NCBI GenBank assembly: GCA_018333525.1
Contig: JAGXTF010000091.1
Location: 1-50,672 of the forward strand
Direction: 5' to 3'
Source: Bacteroidota bacterium
GTDB taxonomy: Bacteria > Bacteroidota > Bacteroidia > NS11-12g > UBA955
Length of the DNA stretch: 50,672 nucleotides
The translations under genes were made by a program, and so were the position numbers. Every line of letters starts with the position of its first letter. Within the stretch, counting starts at the first letter, position 1. Under the pieces are notes generated by a model. The model had not been told where the DNA came from, ran no database searches, and saw nothing but the letters and a program-made list of their open reading frames with translations. Of the stretch, positions 5,101 through 26,278 are shown in pieces.

Positions 5101-8100
5101 CACGAATCGTTACAGATGCAGAATCACTGCAATTTTTATCTGAAATTTCCGTAAGCCAAACTTTGTAATTTTTTGGATACAAAAATGTTTTAGAAACAAC
5201 GGCATTGTTGTCTGTAGTACTATCTCCAAATTTCCATTTCCGTATAAGTGATCCTGAAACAATATTGCTGCTGTCTGTAAAAATAAAATTTTGATTGTTA
5301 ATACAGGAATTCATAGCATTCACCAACAATTTCATCTGCGGCATGGGATACACTTCCATGGGCTTGGTGATAGAATCCATGCAGGTATTGGAAGAAACCA
5401 CCACGAGTTTTACGCTGTAATTTCCCTCTGTAGCGTATGAATGGGTGGCGTTGGTGCTGCTAGCTGAATTTCCATCACCCATGGTCCAGGAGTGCGTTAT
5501 AATGCCATTTGCAATGCTGCTGGTATTGTTCCAGTTGAATCCATTTCCACGCAAACACTGGGTGGAATCATTTACAGTAAATCCGGCTTTTGGATCCGGA
5601 TATACTTCCAAAGCCTTTTTTATGGAGTCTATACAACCCTTGTTGCTGGTTGCATGCAAGGCAACTGTATTCAAACCAAAATTGTTGTAAATATGTGTAG
5701 GGCTTGTAGTAGTTGAATTCTGTCCATCCCCAAATTTCCAGTTGTAATTTAAAGTGCCATAAACTATAGTTGTATTATTGCTAAAAATAAAACTATTTCC
5801 TTTCAAACATTGAAGAGAATCGTTAATTGCAAATGCAGGTTTAGGCATTGGATACACCGCAATCCATTCTTCCGCAGTATCTCTGCATCCTTTGTTGGAA
5901 GACAATATTTGTCTGAATAAGTAAGATCCGGAATCTGCATAATGATGTTGCGTATACGCCGCTGAAGCTGTATCCCCATCACCAAATTCCCAAAGGATTT
6001 CATAGCTTCCTTCATTAATAAATCCTTTATCTGTGAACTGAAATAAATTGGTACTTTCACAATGTTCAATTACATCCAATTGATATTTTGCCTGTGGTTC
6101 ATACATCACATTTACGGTATCGGAAATGGTGTCTCTACAGCCAAAATTACTCACAGAATAGAGTCTTACTCCATATGTTCCAACATTGGCATATATATAT
6201 TCCACAACAGCAGTATCGGCAGTATCGCCAACATCAAAAAACCATTTGGCAAATACAGTTCCGGATGAGATAGTGCTCGAATCTGAGAAAATAAATCGAT
6301 GGTTGGTAAAACATTGATCCGGATTGTTGATATGAATTTTGGCAACAGGATTTGGATAAATCTGGATAGTTTTCTGTGTAGAATCCATACATCCTTTTAC
6401 CGTTGTCGCAATTAACCGAATATTATAATTTCCGGATGGATTGTATACATGGGAGGGGTTCGTTAGAGCAGAAGTATTCCCATCCCCAAAACGCCAGAGG
6501 TAATTGCTGATACTTTGCTTTCCCGTTGTTGTATTCTCCATACTTGCTGTTTGATTTGCACAAACATTTTTCAATGTAAAATTGGTTATAGGTTTGCTGA
6601 ATACCAACACATTCCGTGTAGTGCTGTCACTGCATCCTGCCACATTGGTTACGCGTAATTTTACCGTATATGTAGTGTCTTTTGGAAAAATATGATTTGG
6701 ATTTTTTTGGTTGGAAATACTTCCATCACCAAATTCCCATCTCCACAAATAAATGCGGTCGTTAAATGCAAAACTGGAATCTTTAAAAGTGTTGGCATTA
6801 CCGAAACAGGCATCTGAATACCCGAACCATGGAATAGGTGCAGGCGAAACCATAATATTCCGAACGATCGAATCTTCACAACCATGGTCGCTGGTAATTC
6901 GCAAAACAATCCTATAATTTCCGGTATCTGCATATGCATGTACAGGATTAATAGAATCGGAAAAACTTCCATCTCCAAATGCCCAGAAATAATTGGTAAT
7001 ACTCCCACTTTGCATGGTTGTAATATTTTTAAAACTGGTTGTACCTGTTGCGCAATTCGTACTCCAGATAAAATCCGGCTTTGGTAATTCCCAAACAGTT
7101 ACAGATTTGTTTACTGCTACACTGGTATCGGGATAAATAGCATCGCAAACTCTTGTTACTCCATTCTGCGTAAATGAACCCCGTGCTATCAAATGCGGAT
7201 AAAATGTACCAAAACCTTTGTAATAAAATACCACGTTGGTATCCATTTTTGTTCCAAAAGAACTGTTTAATTTATCACCAAATTGCCAAATCCACTCCGT
7301 TGCAAAAAGACTTTCATTTTTAAATTCAATTCTAAGTGGTTCGCATCCAATGGTATCACTTAAAATACTGAATTTAGATTCCGGACCAATTACCACAAGA
7401 TTTTTAGTTATGCTATCCGTACAACCAAAAGAATTGGTAACTTTTAATTGTATTTGATAATCACCTGTTGCAAAATATCTTTGGGGATTACGAACCTGAC
7501 TTTTGGGATAATTATTGCCGAAACTCCAATCGTAATATTTAATATAATCACCGGCCATTCCCTTCATCACACTGGAATCCACAGTCGTTGCCGTTGCTGT
7601 AAATTTCACACTTTGCGGACACAAAACACTGTCTTTGGGAAAAGTAAATCCCGCATAAACTCCTGAAACATTTACCACATATAAATTAGATAGTGTATCT
7701 CTACAACCTGCACTATCTTTTATTGCCATGGATATTTTATAATTGCCGGGATAATTATAACTTAAGACAGGATTTGGCCCAATATTTTGAAAACCATTTC
7801 CATCGCCCAAATCATACCAAACCAATTCCTTTCCGGCTGCCGCCCTGGATGCATCGCTCCAGTATGGATATGAATAACCCCATCGGGAATTATAGCGGTT
7901 ATTTTCCTGAATTACAAAAGTGTCGTTTACACATTTGGTATTGTTGCTGATCGTAAAATTCTTATCCACTCCCACACTTATCCATAATGCCGTATCACCG
8001 ACACAACCTTTGGGATTTACTACGGTCAGATGTACATAATAACTTCCCGATTTGTTATAGGTATGTTTCTTATAAGAACTGTCTGTGGTTACCAATGTGG

Positions 8101-19257: not shown

Positions 19258-20262
19258 ATGAAACTTCAACATTACTCCTTTTCACTACTTGCAATCTCCT
19301 TAAACTTTGCTAATGCGCAAGTCCAAATTAATTCCGATGATGTATATGCGCCCGGAACTTACCAAATAGCTACCGCTAAAACCGGCGGATTCAATATTGG
19401 CACGTCTGGTGAAAATAAGGTTTGGGATTTTTCCGGACTCCAAAAAGATCAGACTTACAATTTCAATTTGTCTGCTTACCAATCTTCAGGAAATAAACCC
19501 GATGCCAACTTTATTCGAACTGAAGGCACAGACACATTTGAATACATAAAAAAATCCCATTCAACGATGTATGAAATCAGATCCATAGTGAATTTTTCAG
19601 AAATAAATTATTATCCCATTCAATACCTTCAGTTTCCTATGGCATATAACCATAGTATTATGGATTCCATCGATTTTATTTATTACTATAAAGGCTCGGA
19701 TTTGGGAGTAGATAAAGATTCTGTAAGACTGGTATACCACGAACACAAAAACACCATTGCGGATGCCTGGGGAAAATTGAAATTACCCAATGGTGAATAC
19801 GATGCGTTGCGAATCAAAACTACAGATAAATTTAAACTATATATGGAAGGGAAATCCGGCTCAGAATCCTGGGCACATGTGGATGGTTACGACTACGATG
19901 AATCAATTACAGATTACAATTGGTACACCAATAACAAAGGAACTGTTTTAGCAACATATAATGTTGAAAGTGATGCAATGAATTTCATGGTATCCGCTAA
20001 TATTGGAATTAAACACAGAGCTCCAAACGAAAATGGGGTTTGTTTTTTGAATCCGATGAGTGAAGCCTGGAAAGTAAGAAACCCGGGTAAAAAAGAAATT
20101 ACCATACGCTTATATGATGGTACCGGGAAAACGGTAAAACAGGAAAATTTGTTACCTGAATCAGAACTCATCATGAATACCAGTTATTTGAACAACGGAA
20201 TTTATTATATGGAAACAATTGATTCCGATGGCATAAAACAGGGTTTTAAAGTGATGAAGTAA
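19258..20262 (+). CDS. Secreted protein with T9SS type A sorting tail
   Basis: 334 aa. A signal peptide covers residues 1-20 (LLAISLNFANAQ). The middle (residues 25-240) is rich in aromatic and polar residues (KVWDFSGLQ, YDYDESITDYNWY) and probably beta-sandwich; I recognise no catalytic motif. The last 75-80 residues, with EITIRLYDGTGKTVKQE and LNNGIYYMET, and a final KQGFKVMK, match a type A (Por secretion) sorting domain, so it should be exported by the T9SS and possibly glycolipid-anchored. It is transcribed alone, ending at a strong terminator. Function unknown. Confidence 0.82.
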   Translation: MKLQHYSFSLLAISLNFANAQVQINSDDVYAPGTYQIATAKTGGFNIGTSGENKVWDFSGLQKDQTYNFNLSAYQSSGNKPDANFIRTEGTDTFEYIKKSHSTMYEIRSIVNFSEINYYPIQYLQFPMAYNHSIMDSIDFIYYYKGSDLGVDKDSVRLVYHEHKNTIADAWGKLKLPNGEYDALRIKTTDKFKLYMEGKSGSESWAHVDGYDYDESITDYNWYTNNKGTVLATYNVESDAMNFMVSANIGIKHRAPNENGVCFLNPMSEAWKVRNPGKKEITIRLYDGTGKTVKQENLLPESELIMNTSYLNNGIYYMETIDSDGIKQGFKVMK

Positions 20263-20305
20263 CACTTCCGCAGATAACGAACTGCGATTCATTATATGGT
20301 TTTAG

Positions 20306-20330
20306 AAATCCCCGATTGGGGATTTTTTTT
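20306..20330 (+). terminator. Terminator of the 334-aa secreted protein gene
   Basis: A perfect stem aaatcccc/ggggattt with loop gatt, followed by a run of T, 44 bases after the stop codon. Confidence 0.9.
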
Positions 20331-20352
20331 GTGAATTACTGTAAATATTTTT

Positions 20353-20527
20353 CCTCCGGTTGGTCTTTTTGAATTCATCTAAATCCATTGAAATTAACAC
20401 AAATCTCCATGAATTCATGAGACCAATCGGGCATTTTGGGAGAATAATATGGATTGAAGTTCGGTCTCGCCCCGCTGGGGTGGCGGTTGGTCTCGCTCCG
20501 CTTAGCTTTGCAAAGACCAACCGCGGG
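20353..20527. repeat. MITE-like repeat R1 (full length)
   Basis: 175 bp. Ends are inverted: ggttggtcttt near the left, aaagaccaacc near the right. Inside are two back-to-back hairpins. The left one pairs tgaattcat with atgaattca plus ggttggtc with gaccaa; the right one pairs gcggttggtct with agaccaaccgc. It has no coding capacity. It is one of five related copies (R1-R5) in 5.2 kb. Together with the terminator it fills most of the gap 20263-20631. Confidence 0.85.
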
Positions 20528-20631
20528 AAAGGAACCTAATAATAAATGCTTGAATTTATTAAATGGATGATCTGGCACACCATTTGGTTCGGCACCTAAA
20601 ACAAAAGTCCAACAAATTAATCCAAAAGAAA

Positions 20632-21534
20632 ATGAAATCAAGAGTGTTCAAAATCTGGAGTGCGACAATTACTTTTTTTGTCATTCTTGTTCTGGTAATC
20701 GCCTGCAGGAAGGAATTTTTAACGAACAATACTCATAATGGAGCGCGCAATTTACAGATTTATCTCACCGATCATCCCTGCCCATTTGACTCTGTATTTG
20801 TCGAAATTCTATTTGTGGAAGTCAGGCTGGATACTGGTAATTGTGATGATGATGATGATGATCGTCCTGTAGGGTATCACGATAACGATGATGATCAGGG
20901 CGATGACGATGATGATGATGATGAACATGGCTGTGGAAGTGTCTGGGATACATTGGCGATATCTCCCGGTGTTTACAATATCATGGATTTGAGAAACGGA
21001 GTAGATACTCTTTTAGCGAATGGAAGTTTACCTGCTGGCAATGTGAAACAAATACGCCTTACACTTGGTACAAATAACTCAGTAGTAATTGGTGGAACTA
21101 CCTATCCATTAAACTTATTCCCCGGTTCAAGCCACTATGCTTACGTAAAATTAGATGATGATGAACTGGAACATCTCAGTTCAGGAAAATATGCAATATG
21201 GCTGGATTTTGATATCTGCAGATCCATTGTACAATACAACGGAAGTTATTTCCTGAAACCATATCTTAAAGCATTCACTATTTCAAGATTTGGAGCAGTG
21301 GAAGGGGAAGTGGGACCTCGCGCCGCCAAAGCATTTGTTACTGTTTATAATTATACAGATACCGGCACTGCAATTCCCGATGATGACGGTGAATTCAAGA
21401 TTCGTGGATTGATTCCCGGCGTCTATACGGTATTATTTGATGGTAACAACGGTTATAACGATACCATCTTGTACAATGTGCAGGTGTCCGCAGGCAGAAC
21501 CACGGAATTACGAAGAATATCGCTCAGTAATTAG
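20632..21534 (+). CDS. DUF4382 lipoprotein with Asp-rich loop
   Basis: 300 aa from the ATG at 20632 (a longer reading from 20563 would add 23 residues before the signal and is unlikely). The signal has lipobox VIAC, so it is a lipoprotein. Residues about 38-210 match DUF4382 (LQIYLTDHPCPFDSVFVEI, then YNIMDLRNGVDTLLANGSLP). Inserted at about 70-100 is a highly acidic loop with runs of Asp encoded by gat triplets. Residues 220-295 form a carboxypeptidase-regulatory-like beta-sandwich (DDDGEFKIRGLIPGVYTVLF). The function of the family is unknown; the acidic loop may bind Ca2+, by inference. It is flanked by repeats R1 and R2. Confidence 0.85.
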   Translation: MKSRVFKIWSATITFFVILVLVIACRKEFLTNNTHNGARNLQIYLTDHPCPFDSVFVEILFVEVRLDTGNCDDDDDDRPVGYHDNDDDQGDDDDDDDEHGCGSVWDTLAISPGVYNIMDLRNGVDTLLANGSLPAGNVKQIRLTLGTNNSVVIGGTTYPLNLFPGSSHYAYVKLDDDELEHLSSGKYAIWLDFDICRSIVQYNGSYFLKPYLKAFTISRFGAVEGEVGPRAAKAFVTVYNYTDTGTAIPDDDGEFKIRGLIPGVYTVLFDGNNGYNDTILYNVQVSAGRTTELRRISLSN

Positions 21535-21550
21535 TTTTGATATGCAAAGT

Positions 21551-21584
21551 GAAAAAGCAGTCGGAAGGCTGCTTTTTCTTTTTT
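21551..21584 (+). terminator. Terminator of the DUF4382 gene
   Basis: A ten-base stem gaaaaagcag/ctgctttttc with an eight-base loop and a T tail, 16 bases after the stop codon. 21585-21714 beyond it shows nothing. Confidence 0.88.
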
Positions 21585-21714
21585 GAGAATTTTTTTTTCA
21601 AATTGAGAATGAATTTTACATTTAAATAAATCCTGGTGAAGTTTAGCAATCTAAAAAATATAATTTCTCTTGTGATTATTGATCGTTTAATAAAGACCTA
21701 AACAAAATACTTTT

Positions 21715-21886
21715 CTCCCTCGGTTGGTCTTTTTGAATTCAATTAAATCCATTGAAATTAGTACAAATCTCCATGAATTCATGAGACCAATCAAACATTT
21801 GTGGAAGAGAACATAGGAAGGTAGAGGGTCGAGGTCCGCATGGTGGCGGTTGGTCTCGCTGCGCTGCACAAAGACCAACCGCGGGG
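21715..21886. repeat. MITE-like repeat R2 (full length)
   Basis: 172 bp, same plan and orientation as R1: ctccctcggttggtct at the left, agaccaaccgcggggg at the right, and the internal gaattcatgagaccaa block. It ends five bases from the stop codon of the next, minus-strand gene, so it is at that gene's 3' end. Confidence 0.85.
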
Positions 21887-21890
21887 GATA

Positions 21891-22595
21891 CTATTTTATT
21901 ACTTTAAAGTCCATCAATTCCCATGACACCCCACTATTCAACTCATATTTTATCAATCCGATATCTTTTGCCCACCATGTTTGGGTAATTGTATTCTTTA
22001 GAAAATCAGAAATTATAACCGAATCCGAACAGCCAACATGTCTCACATTTTTGTAAATTTTACCTGCGATATTGATATCTAATGTATCCATAAGTCGGTA
22101 AATTCGGAAGTCATTTCTATTCAGGGAATATTTTCCATCCCCACTGGTATAAGCAGATGTTTGTGTGTTGAAGTCCAGAAACCACTCATAATTTGGAGGG
22201 CCAAATCCAATGATTATTTCGGTAATGTTGGAAAGATTCGAATGGGGAAATTCCAATTCATTGGTGTGACTAAATTTCACCCTCCAGGTTCCTTCACAAA
22301 AATCCAGACCAGGTTCTAATTTATCTGTACAACCACTTCCATTATATGATTCATCACGATCCACAACGTAAAACGTGTCCATCACGGTTGTATCAGGGTA
22401 TTTCCGGAATTTCCACCAGCTGCCTTTTTGAAATGCATAATATTTGAATATTTCCGGATCTTGACGGTGCGCAATACTGTCGCAATCGCAAGAAGGTTTC
22501 TTTTTACAAGACGTTAATATCTGTGTTGAATGATATACAAACAGGAATAAAATCCCGAATTTTAAGATTCTTCGAAAATATTTAGCAATGGTCAT
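21891..22595 (-). CDS. Predicted lipoprotein of unknown function
   Basis: 234 aa. A long N-terminal hydrophobic segment ends in LTSC (Cys at about residue 30), a lipobox, followed by KKKPSCDCD. The mature part is rich in Trp, Tyr and Phe and has several cysteines (CTDKLEPGLDFCEGTW), which suggests a disulfide-stabilised beta-fold. I recognise no family. It stands alone on the minus strand with repeat R2 at its 3' end and R3 upstream of its 5' end. Position in an accessory block of diverse lipoproteins suggests a lineage-specific gene. Confidence 0.7.
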   Translation of the reverse strand: MTIAKYFRRILKFGILFLFVYHSTQILTSCKKKPSCDCDSIAHRQDPEIFKYYAFQKGSWWKFRKYPDTTVMDTFYVVDRDESYNGSGCTDKLEPGLDFCEGTWRVKFSHTNELEFPHSNLSNITEIIIGFGPPNYEWFLDFNTQTSAYTSGDGKYSLNRNDFRIYRLMDTLDINIAGKIYKNVRHVGCSDSVIISDFLKNTITQTWWAKDIGLIKYELNSGVSWELMDFKVIK

Positions 22596-22686
22596 TGAGC
22601 ATTATAATTTTAAAAGTTAAAACAAATTCAATATGCAAGTTATCCATATTTTTCGGAAAGCCAAATTTCAGTTGGTATGATTATTC

Positions 22687-22861
22687 TCCCCTGGTTGGTC
22701 TTCTTGAATGCATTAAAAACCTCAGAAATTTGCTAAAATCTCCAAGAATTCATGAGACCAACCGGTATTTGGGGAGGATAATATGGGAAGGTAGTGAGAG
22801 AGCCCCGCATGGTGGCGGTTGGTCTCGCTCCGCTGCGCTGCACAAAGACCAACCGCGGGGG
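22687..22861. repeat. MITE-like repeat R3 (full length)
   Basis: 175 bp, same plan as R1 and R2: ctcccctggttggtct at the left, agaccaaccgcgggg at the right. The right half (gcatggtggcggttggtctc) is almost identical to R2. It lies in the gap between two minus-strand lipoprotein genes, nine bases beyond the 3' end of the downstream-coordinate one. Confidence 0.85.
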
Positions 22862-22870
22862 TATAAAAAG

Positions 22871-23407
22871 CTAATTACCCAGTTTTAAGTTAAAATGACC
22901 TTGCGTAAATCTAAGTGTGTCAGAAAGATTTGTTTCAATTTCCCCCTTTCGACTTCTCACTAATTCGATTTGAAAATCCCCATTGATCTCACGAAAATTG
23001 TCAATTTCGGAAACAATTTCAATTCTATTCTCAAACAACGAACTATCATTTACCCGATATATATCGTTAATCATTTCTCCGGATTCTTTGTATGTCAGAA
23101 AGTTTGCAATTGCCCGAAGTTCGTGCGCATTGGCTCCAGATTTAGTATATATTATTTGCTTACCAAGTTTAAGCAGACCAAAAATATAAAGTTCATCTTT
23201 CAAATTATCGGTTGGCGGTATTTCATTTACCAAATGTATTTTGAACCAAGCTACCCCGCTATCTTCTCCACGATCACAATAAACCACCCTTTCGTAATTG
23301 ACACCATTTAGCACTACTTCGATTTTACCAAAAGAGTTTTTTGGATTGCTTTTTTTACATCCTATCGAGAGAAATAAAATGGTTATGAAAGGTATTAAAT
23401 ATTTCAA
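22871..23407 (-). CDS. Predicted lipoprotein of unknown function
   Basis: 178 aa, starting at TTG (23407). The signal ITILFLSIGC ends in a lipobox Cys at residue 17, followed by KKSNPKN. The mature part is a mixed beta-rich sequence with no motif I recognise (KIEVVLNGVNYERVVYCD, and YRVNDSSLFENRIEIV). The short start resembles other small Bacteroidota lipoproteins of unknown role. Repeat R3 lies at its 3' end and R4 upstream of its 5' end. Confidence 0.7.
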   Translation of the reverse strand: MKYLIPFITILFLSIGCKKSNPKNSFGKIEVVLNGVNYERVVYCDRGEDSGVAWFKIHLVNEIPPTDNLKDELYIFGLLKLGKQIIYTKSGANAHELRAIANFLTYKESGEMINDIYRVNDSSLFENRIEIVSEIDNFREINGDFQIELVRSRKGEIETNLSDTLRFTQGHFNLKLGN

Positions 23408-23447
23408 AACTCCACAATTGTTATTTTAGAACATATTAGTTTAATTT

Positions 23448-23562
23448 CTCAAGGTTACACTTTTTGTATTCATCTAAATCCACAGAAGTTAACTAAAATC
23501 TCTATGAATTCATGCGACCAACCAGGCACGCTCCGTATAGCTCCGCAAAGGCCAACCGTGGA
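23448..23562. repeat. MITE-like repeat R4 (internally deleted)
   Basis: 115 bp. It keeps the left block (tttttgtattcatctaaatcc) and gaattcatgcgaccaacc, then jumps to the right end (gcaaaggccaaccgtgg). The middle part with the inner ggttggtctc word is missing. It ends eight bases from the stop of the glycine-rich gene. Confidence 0.75.
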
Positions 23563-23570
23563 AGAAAATG

Positions 23571-25370
23571 CTATTCTACCCAAACTTTTTTTGTTTGAAT
23601 TTCGCCATTGGAATATTTCAGACAAACATAGAAAAGACCATTGCCCTGTATTAATACAGAACCGGTTTTTTGTGCAGGAATTTGCTGATGTAGCATTAAT
23701 TTTCCGGTCATTTCATAAACGAAAACTGATGCGTTTTGAAGCCGATTATTTGTTATACTCACCATTCCATCAGGACTCGGATTTGGAAATACTTCCAAAG
23801 AATATTTTTGCGTAATTTTTTCTGTATTTAAAAATAAATTGCAAGGATCCTGAATATAAGTTTTTGGAATAATTGTATCTTGAATTTTCCCTGCTAATGA
23901 AAATACAATTCCGGATATTCCATCTTTACCGGTCAAAGAATCCGGAGAGCCAATGCCACCCAGACCGAAATTCCCGGCCAATCCACCTTCCATTTCATTA
24001 CCGGAACGATAAATATTTGAGTTGATTCCATAAATACCAATTGCATCTCCACCAGAACCTCCTCCGCCGCCACCGCTGTTTCCGCCGTCACCACCGTCAC
24101 CTCCATTTCCTCCCGGTCCTCCATCTACGGATGAAATTCCCAAGCCACCTTTGCCGCCCTTACCGCCTAAAGTACCTTTCCCTGATTTCCCACCATTGCC
24201 ACCTGCACCACCCTGTCCAATAAATATTTTGCAATCCATAAATTTTGCTGATGAAGAATAGAGTATCACAGCGAAACTATGGCCTCCACTCATTCCGCCA
24301 GTACCACCTTTGGTGGATGCAATCCCACCTGATCCACCTCCACCGCCGCCGGCACCATAAGCATCCGTCAGATAATCACAACCACCGGCACCTCCACCTC
24401 CACCGCCTCCAGTACCATCCAGTCCGATAGTGCCATCACTTCCATTATTACTAACCCAAAAATTGGATACAATTATGTCGGTGTCTTTGGCACTATTACC
24501 ACCATGCCCATGATTTGTTCTGCCTGGATTTCCTGCAAAGCCATCAGCGCAGGGAGAACTTCCAAATCCTCCATAACCCGCATTATTGGGGCCGGTTTGT
24601 ACCGCATTGTTTCCGTTTATTCCCGGAGTGGCATTATAATCCGGTCCAAATGGATTGCAATCTGTGTCCATAAATCCACCTCTGCCACCTTTTCCTCCTG
24701 CAGTGGAACTATAACCCGGCGTAACAGCACCGGAACCACCACTACCAGAATTTGTGTTGTCACAACTGACTGAATATTCTTTTGCATCGCCTCCGTTACT
24801 GCCTATTACTGCTTGAACAGTGGCATCGTTTCCATCCACACCATTGGTGCCATTTGAACCTTTTCCTCCTTTGAAAATTATTCTTTGAAATACCAAATCG
24901 CTACAATTAAATCCATGCAATCCATAGGAGCTTTTTCCAGCATCTATTGCATCCGGCGCAATAATGGTGAGGTCTGAAAGTATGGTTTTTTTAGAAAAAT
25001 TCTCCGCGCGGACCGCATAGTATTCCCCATTAGTTGCTTTAACACCGGAAATAGTGGTGGTTCCATTAAAATTCCAATTGTTATCAAATCCACCCCAGAG
25101 GCTTATTCCGTTTGCGAGCTCAATAGTCTCAGTATAATGACCTGCAGCAATTCTCAACAATGTATCGCCGGTAATTTTAGCCCTGTTTATGCCGTATTGA
25201 ATGCTTGCACAAGGCGTATTTTCAGAACCACAAGTTGTGCTGTCTTTACCGTTAACATTGCTCACATGCGTAACGAAAGAACAACTTTTCTGTGCATTGC
25301 TCATAAATGGAATAAAAACAAATACGGCAATCGCAAAAGCGCGACAGAACCGGCCTTTTTTAACGTTCAT
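23571..25370 (-). CDS. Glycine-rich surface protein with T9SS type A tail
   Basis: 599 aa. Signal peptide at residues 1-26 (FVFIPFMSNAQ). Residues 30-150 resemble the start of a DUF1565-type parallel beta-helix (CASIQYGINRAK, AAGHYTETIELANGISLWGG). Residues about 165-490 are extremely Gly-rich, with runs such as GGGGGGGAGG and repeated GGxGGxGG, and should form an elongated stalk or coil. The last 75 residues (YSLEVFPNPSPDGMVSITNN, then KTKKVWVE-like end) are a type A sorting domain for T9SS export. No catalytic motif is seen. It may be a surface adhesin or matrix protein. R4 lies at its 3' end. Confidence 0.85.
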   Translation of the reverse strand: MNVKKGRFCRAFAIAVFVFIPFMSNAQKSCSFVTHVSNVNGKDSTTCGSENTPCASIQYGINRAKITGDTLLRIAAGHYTETIELANGISLWGGFDNNWNFNGTTTISGVKATNGEYYAVRAENFSKKTILSDLTIIAPDAIDAGKSSYGLHGFNCSDLVFQRIIFKGGKGSNGTNGVDGNDATVQAVIGSNGGDAKEYSVSCDNTNSGSGGSGAVTPGYSSTAGGKGGRGGFMDTDCNPFGPDYNATPGINGNNAVQTGPNNAGYGGFGSSPCADGFAGNPGRTNHGHGGNSAKDTDIIVSNFWVSNNGSDGTIGLDGTGGGGGGGAGGCDYLTDAYGAGGGGGGSGGIASTKGGTGGMSGGHSFAVILYSSSAKFMDCKIFIGQGGAGGNGGKSGKGTLGGKGGKGGLGISSVDGGPGGNGGDGGDGGNSGGGGGGSGGDAIGIYGINSNIYRSGNEMEGGLAGNFGLGGIGSPDSLTGKDGISGIVFSLAGKIQDTIIPKTYIQDPCNLFLNTEKITQKYSLEVFPNPSPDGMVSITNNRLQNASVFVYEMTGKLMLHQQIPAQKTGSVLIQGNGLFYVCLKYSNGEIQTKKVWVE

Positions 25371-25519
25371 TTTTTTATTTTAAATGGTATTATATTCATG
25401 AAAAAGGATTGATGCATTGGTCTTATACAATTTATGTCGTATTTCTAAAACATCAATCTGTTTGATTCAAATTTATAGGATTGTTTTAAAAAAAGCCATC
25501 TTTTGACAATTTCCATTTT

Positions 25520-25584
25520 CTCCCTCTGTTGGTCCAGCTTGGCGATTGGCTTCGCTTCGCTTCGAAAAGATGAGCCATGGGAGA
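25520..25584. repeat. MITE-like repeat R5 (short, end-only copy)
   Basis: 65 bp. Only the two ends remain: ttttctccctctgttggtc at the left and gagccatgggagaaaa at the right, with ttttctccc/gggagaaaa as a perfect outer inverted repeat. It ends eight bases from the stop of the next minus-strand gene. 25371-25519 before it has no feature. Confidence 0.65.
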
Positions 25585-25591
25585 AAAGACC

Positions 25592-26053
25592 CTAATCTGA
25601 TTGCATCATCCATTCATGTATACAAAACTCACATTTATAAATCTCAAAGGTTACGGTTTTATCATCATTTGTACACAATAAATTTAAGATATATGAAGCA
25701 CCGGCTTCCAAATTGAATAAATTCGGCCCTTTCATATCAGATTTATATTGAACATCTTTTTTCGTTAAAATAACATTAACTTGATTTGCATCTTTACTCC
25801 ATGTATTTGAATCTAAATATAGCTTTTGGGCCTTATCATATTGCTCAATAGTCAAATAAACCGGTTGAAAATTTACTACTAAATTTAATTTATATGAGTT
25901 GCTTATTTTATCAGATTTCATAACCTTCAACCAAATGAAATCTGACGTATTTGGTAGTTCTAATGATACAAGGCGTTGCTTTTGAACTTTAGTATCACCG
26001 GCACAGCCAATTAAAATCAAAATATATACTATTAATTTATTGTTTTTTGCCAT
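25592..26053 (-). CDS. Small predicted lipoprotein
   Basis: 153 aa. Signal VYILILIGC has its lipobox Cys at residue 17. The mature part has alternating hydrophobic residues (YKLNLVVNFQPVYLTIEQY) typical of a beta-sandwich, and two cysteines near the C-terminus (YKCEFCIHEW). I recognise no family. It is a single minus-strand gene between repeat R5 and the tRNA unit. Probably exported to the periplasm or outer membrane; function unknown. Confidence 0.65.
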   Translation of the reverse strand: MAKNNKLIVYILILIGCAGDTKVQKQRLVSLELPNTSDFIWLKVMKSDKISNSYKLNLVVNFQPVYLTIEQYDKAQKLYLDSNTWSKDANQVNVILTKKDVQYKSDMKGPNLFNLEAGASYILNLLCTNDDKTVTFEIYKCEFCIHEWMMQSD

Positions 26054-26201: not shown

Positions 26202-26278
26202 TGGTGGGCCCACTTGGAATCGAACCAAGCACCTACTGATTATGAGTCAGTTGCTCTAACCGAATGAGCTATAGGCCC
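26202..26278 (-). tRNA. tRNA with CAT anticodon (elongator Met or Ile2)
   Basis: A complete cloverleaf: acceptor stem GGGCCTA/TGGGCCC fully paired (one G-T), anticodon stem ACTGA/TCAGT with loop CTCATAA, T loop TTCGATT, discriminator A and an encoded CCA end. The anticodon stem lacks the three G-C pairs of initiator tRNA, so it is not the initiator. Sequence alone does not tell me whether C34 is modified to lysidine (tRNA-Ile2) or stays C (tRNA-Met). The promoter lies upstream of a decayed tRNA copy, so both are in one transcript. Confidence 0.93.

Follow-up and report, generated by a model that had tools for sequence, protein, structure and literature searches.

Paired REP-like hairpins between genes of a Bacteroidota genome and their probable movement by RAYT transposases with a subclass 2.6 signature

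Results

The window, i.e. the whole stretch of 50,672 nucleotides analysed here, contains between 20.3 and 25.6 kb a block of genes whose products comprise two T9SS-sorted proteins, one protein with DUF4382 and three small proteins, two of which are lipoprotein-like. None of the three small proteins matched a Pfam family, and BLASTP shows no kinship among the genes of the block. In agreement with the original prediction, each of the five consecutive gaps from 20262 to 25592 holds one copy of a repeat (R1-R5) and no further related copy was found in the rest of the window; the gap after the block, which contains the tRNA gene at 26205-26278, has none. Two other repetitive stretches were noticed in the window, namely a run of aspartate codons (GAT repeats, 20830-20930) within the gene of the DUF4382 protein (20563-21534) and a tandem direct repeat of about 150 bp with 84% identity at the contig end (1-307).

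R1-R5 all lie on the plus strand and are mutually related elements of about 175, 175, 175, 115 and 70 bp. R1 (20350-20528; hairpin H1 at 20358-20428, hairpin H2 at 20485-20522), R2 (21713-21886; H1 21722-21792, H2 21848-21880) and R3 (22684-22861; H1 22693-22763, H2 22817-22854) are full doublets of REP-like hairpins. R4 (23452-23565) is a doublet that has lost its spacer and the left half of H2 by deletion and whose left H1 arm has decayed, and R5 (25518-25586) is a remnant consisting of the outer ends and one decayed hairpin. R4 and R5 are decayed relics, and their broken arms show no compensating changes. As predicted, every full copy contains two hairpins. In R2 either strand folds better than its shuffled versions (z -2.9 and -3.4). 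Full GGTTGGTC-N-GACCAACC hairpins were found three times in the window with the exact pattern, compared to none in 100 shuffles.

A full copy has roughly the layout TTTTCTCCC-GGTTGGTCTTTTTGAATTCAT..loop..ATGAATTCATGAGACCAACC (H1), a spacer of about 55 bp and CGGTTGGTCTCRCTCCGCTKCGCTGCRCAAAGACCAACC-GCGGGAGAAA (H2). H1 and H2 have their arms in common in head-to-head orientation, with outer GGTTGGTCTTT..AAAGACCAACC and inner TGAGACCAACC..GGTTGGTCTCR. The loop of H1 is enlarged, unlike that of H2, and this asymmetry of the doublet counts against its reading as a pair of REPs. The elements extend a few bases beyond the ends first proposed and have a CTCC../..GGAG-like edge (TTTTCTCC..GGGAGAAA). 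The GT[AG]G foot, the 5' GTAG or GTGG tetranucleotide of canonical REPs, is absent from them, and Rfam gave no match above the gathering score at the elements.

R2-R5 lie about 5, 9, 5 and 5 bp from the minus-strand stop codons at 21891, 22871, 23571 and 25592, R2 being situated between convergent genes. The predicted closeness to minus-strand stops thus holds for these four copies and not for R1, which is located 88 bp downstream of a plus-strand stop, beyond a separate hairpin with a T-run at about 20308-20332. Such positions would also fit a functional mRNA 3'-end element, a stabiliser or terminator that was spread or retained for that role, the more so as no terminator-like site was found just past the stops of the minus-strand genes while the plus-strand gene 20563-21534 has one. 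However, the hairpins of R1-R5 are not followed by a T-run and the elements are therefore not intrinsic terminators. Moreover, the arms of R4 and R5 are broken without compensation and a related copy on contig C90 lies between divergent genes. We consider it very unlikely that the elements owe their presence to such a role. A stabilising effect on mRNA 3' ends is possible; the position behind stop codons is the usual niche of REPs, and any effect on the 3' end would be secondary.

Since the genes between R1 and R5 are mutually unrelated, the five copies did not arise by duplication of a gene together with its repeat, and a simple local duplication of the region is excluded. Likewise, the elements are not confined to the block. 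In the 3.7-Mb assembly, related copies occur at six other loci (C31:88.96k; C118:123.3k, 126.5k and 369.3-369.5k; C90:87.6k; C3:2.4k) as full doublets, solo H2, H2-H2 and H2-H1-H2 mosaics. The family thus amounts to about 11 loci, all of them between predicted genes save for short ORFs that overlap the repeats themselves. This copy number is low for REPs and was counted against a REP doublet. Outside the block the copies stand singly beside ordinary genes. R1-R4 share 72-82% identity among themselves and 65-76% with the remaining full copies in the assembly, a mild sign that may point to local spread. The clustering of five copies in one 5-kb block could be due either to local spread or to arrival of the block together with its repeats. 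A synteny search for an empty site, started from the desaturase gene adjoining the block, gave best matches of about 35% identity, which were too distant for use.

Exact GTTGGTC..GACCAAC hairpins were found 42 times in a pattern scan of the genome, while the reversed control pattern was not found. Most of these hairpins belong to a second type of 42 nt, e.g. GTTGGTCGCCTTGCGCTGCGCCGGCAAGGCATGAGGACCAAC. Across 29 distinct 42-nt sequences, pairing holds in 97.5% of cells, compared to 21-50% in slid controls, and six of seven inner pairs show changes on both sides. In the 42-nt family, conservation thus extends to the hairpin itself, beyond mere sequence. The 42-nt hairpins often form alternating arrays (C12, C75, C31). 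Enterobacterial BIMEs are likewise arrays of alternating hairpin types; R1-R5 themselves, in contrast, are doublets and not arrays.

Several further observations were made on these hairpins. At 5407-6506 of one locus (L043, contig C32) three identical 42-nt GTTGGTC hairpins lie between short ORFs, and the 3' end of a 142-aa gene there (6320-6456) recurs as a fragment at 5758-5894, ahead of the middle hairpin. At another locus (L087, contig C80) a hairpin together with some 90 bp of its non-coding surroundings recurs with 82% identity behind two adjacent genes (52695-52821 and 54273-54401). Many 42-nt hairpins, e.g. at 4780-4821 of L084, have the loop GCTTCGC. Its complement GCGAAGC is an unusually stable DNA mini-hairpin and might mark the folding strand. 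Of 14 stretches matched by GAATTCATGAGACCAACC in a search of the whole collection, nearly all represent the same conserved coding sequence, which by eye resembles aconitase; the element itself was among these only in two contigs of the sister genome MAG-354.

The H2 hairpin also occurs in other genera of the family. Two genomes (G034 and G038) contain H2 as inverted doublets with a 45-bp spacer, an architecture as in H1-H2; inverted pairs of REP palindromes separated by a spacer are thus found in R1-R3, C31 and C118a as well as in G034 and G038. H1 corresponds to an inverted REP whose inner part differs.

The original prediction had proposed a non-autonomous transposon and suggested searching for a RAYT gene with matching ends. 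Such a gene was found in G018, a genome of another genus (g8), where H2 brackets a RAYT gene of 172 aa, which supports the proposal. Two inverted H2 units lie upstream, GGTTGGTCTTTACGCAACGCAGTGGAGTGAGACCAACC and a second copy ahead of the start codon, and one lies downstream as inverted GTTGGTCTCGCTGCGCAAAGACCAAC, 8 bp past the stop. Its best NCBIfam match is to the REP-associated tyrosine transposase, at 4e-19, which falls short of the curated cut-off; the protein matches Pfam Y1_Tnp above the cut-off. The genome of the window encodes three relatives of this RAYT (on C58, C104 and C59) with 46-51% identity. GTTGG-type hairpins lie near each of them, and the C59 gene has the 42-nt type on both sides. 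Together with the G018 RAYT and one RAYT of MAG-354 (G008) they form a supported clade (96/95). A RAYT directly flanked by the REP type of the window was not found in this assembly; the cognate RAYT of R1-R5 may have been lost, may be unassembled or may have been replaced by related RAYTs acting in trans. An initial RAYT search was based on Pfam Y1_Tnp, for which the relevant RAYTs scored too low. Five candidates from Pfam Y1_Tnp, of a DHxH type, were rejected as they form a separate branch with different hairpins; one of them has a 42-nt GTTGG hairpin at a distance of about 220 bp, which was judged coincidental.

A GTTGG..CCAAC palindrome was present within about 300 bp at 25 of 41 such RAYT loci from the family and the class, at 15 of them on both sides, compared to an expected background of about 0.1 per locus, as estimated from distant flanks at these loci. 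The control words were found at 10, 5 and 1 of the 41 loci, and the word with 10 is GGTTG..CAACC, which overlaps the signature itself. On the RAYT tree the signature is clustered, with 7 changes versus 14 in shuffles. The bracketing palindromes are often GTTGGTGTTNTCACCAAC, e.g. at loci L112, L114, L122, L136, L142 and L149.

These results bear on two other explanations. A classical MITE would have arisen by deletion from a DDE-type insertion sequence, would have the terminal inverted repeats TTTTCTCCC..GGTTGGTC and would move in trans, leaving a short target duplication. The ends had indeed been likened to terminal inverted repeats; inverted repeats do form the outermost parts, but every such end is a single arm of its own hairpin. 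At R2, R3 and C118a, a 5-nt word common to both flanks would fit as well. Such shared words are weak evidence, being present near both ends of three of six copies (null 7% each) and noticed before being tested, and their offsets vary. No consistent short target duplication was found around the copies, as was stated before. In addition, solo and mosaic hairpins exist and the same hairpins bracket RAYT genes. The elements are thus hardly a MITE in the sense of a DDE transposase, and we regard that origin as highly improbable.

A second explanation, close to the earlier proposal of a recombination site for swapping lipoprotein genes, is an integron attC-like cassette array in which a gene and its downstream hairpin form an exchangeable unit. 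Several unrelated genes each have one element behind them, in the same orientation relative to four of them. However, no integron integrase in the genome passes the TIGR02249 cut-off, the matches all being generic tyrosine recombinases, and copies elsewhere are single beside ordinary genes or lie between divergent genes. The arms do not match the attC core RYYYAAC/GTTRRRY when compared by eye, and again RAYT genes are bracketed by the same hairpin. An exchange site of this kind is extremely unlikely.

Long direct repeats lie beside three related copies. On C31 (L042) they span 87981-88139 and 89134-89292 (159 bp, 89% identical), with a 258-aa gene between the first repeat and the element, and at C118c (L039) they span 369208-369288 and 369536-369616 (81 bp, 89% identical). 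In MAG-354 (end of L057, start of L056) the repeat comprises the terminal 94 bp of an nth-like gene, with 93 of 94 positions identical; here two contig ends were joined over a 135-bp overlap, the adjacency is inferred and a tandem array is an alternative. These direct repeats of 81-159 bp are copies of the 3' end of the neighbouring gene. No long direct repeats above shuffles flank R1-R5. Insertion of a REP doublet may produce a target duplication of 80-160 bp that usually covers the 3' end of the adjacent gene, which we consider doubtful. We know of no very long target-site duplication for RAYT elements; long direct repeats beside three copies are unexpected for movement by a RAYT and were counted against a REP doublet. 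Since unrelated direct repeats occur at about eight places in the same 270 kb, chance may also account for them.

Discussion

R1-R5 are very probably non-autonomous, REPIN-like REP doublets that were formerly moved by a RAYT of the G018 clade via single-stranded, hairpin-guided cutting. The doublet anatomy, the copies across the genome and in other genera and the H2-type REP on either side of the G018 RAYT were observed directly, as were the genome's own RAYTs of that clade and the conserved pairing in the sister REP family. In the proposed mechanism, two inverted palindromic REP units (H1 and H2) with a spacer of about 55 bp and CTCC/GGAG-like edges would constitute the mobile unit. A RAYT of the TnpA-REP subclass 2.6 type, which is an HUH/Y1 nuclease, would recognise the hairpins in single-stranded DNA, excise the doublets and paste them elsewhere, and this spread may be ongoing or past. 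The part of a G018-clade RAYT as the mover and the single-strand cut-and-paste chemistry are proposed by analogy with studies of E. coli TnpA-REP.

In the description by Quentin et al. (2018, PMC6006769), TnpA-REP subclass 2.6 consists of Bacteroidetes proteins of about 179 aa with the motifs NH[LIV]H and YIH[QN]NP. Their genes have "atypical" structures on their flanks, which lack GT[AG]G and have further copies in the genome. The G018 protein (NHVH/YIHNNP) fits these motifs fully, and those of C104 (NHIH/YTHNNP), C59 (NHIH/YIHDNP) and C58 (NHFH/YIHKNP) differ by one or two substitutions. By comparison of motifs, these RAYTs bear the subclass 2.6 signature. Compared to the subclass 2.6 (Bertels group 5) REPtrons as described in PMC6006769, our system is alike in its Bacteroidota hosts, RAYTs of about 170-180 aa that bear NHxH and YIHxNP, and flanking hairpins without GT[AG]G that have genomic copies elsewhere; in contrast, the H2 REP adjoins its cognate RAYT only in the sister genus. 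The GTTGG..CCAAC foot, which is common here and absent from the main text of that study, is possibly the common foot of subclass 2.6 REPs.

Similar structures are the REPINs, defined by Bertels and Rainey (2011, PMC3116915) as doublets of inverted REPs that are associated with RAYTs. R1-R5 resemble them in having two inverted REPs with a spacer, in the ability to fold into a single hairpin, in their extragenic position and in the link to a RAYT, but the R1-R5 family has a low copy number, is asymmetric owing to the enlarged H1 loop and lacks a GTAG tag. In the "TIRtrons" of Di Nocera et al. (2013, PMC3733652) the inverted repeats on both sides of a RAYT are likewise partly self-complementary and occur as dispersed dimers as well. 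Their TIR sequences differ from ours, and the section on TIR-flanked RAYTs gives no example from Bacteroidetes. Accordingly, the R1-R5 family would be new while its kind, the subclass 2.6 REPs, is already known, and it is most probably neither a DDE-type MITE nor an integron site.

With this study a previously unexplained repeat is placed in a little-studied group of RAYTs, the Bacteroidetes subclass 2.6. The GTTGG..CCAAC signature makes the "atypical" REPs of this group searchable. Moreover, it provides a concrete substrate for asking how a RAYT without a GTAG guide locates its DNA.
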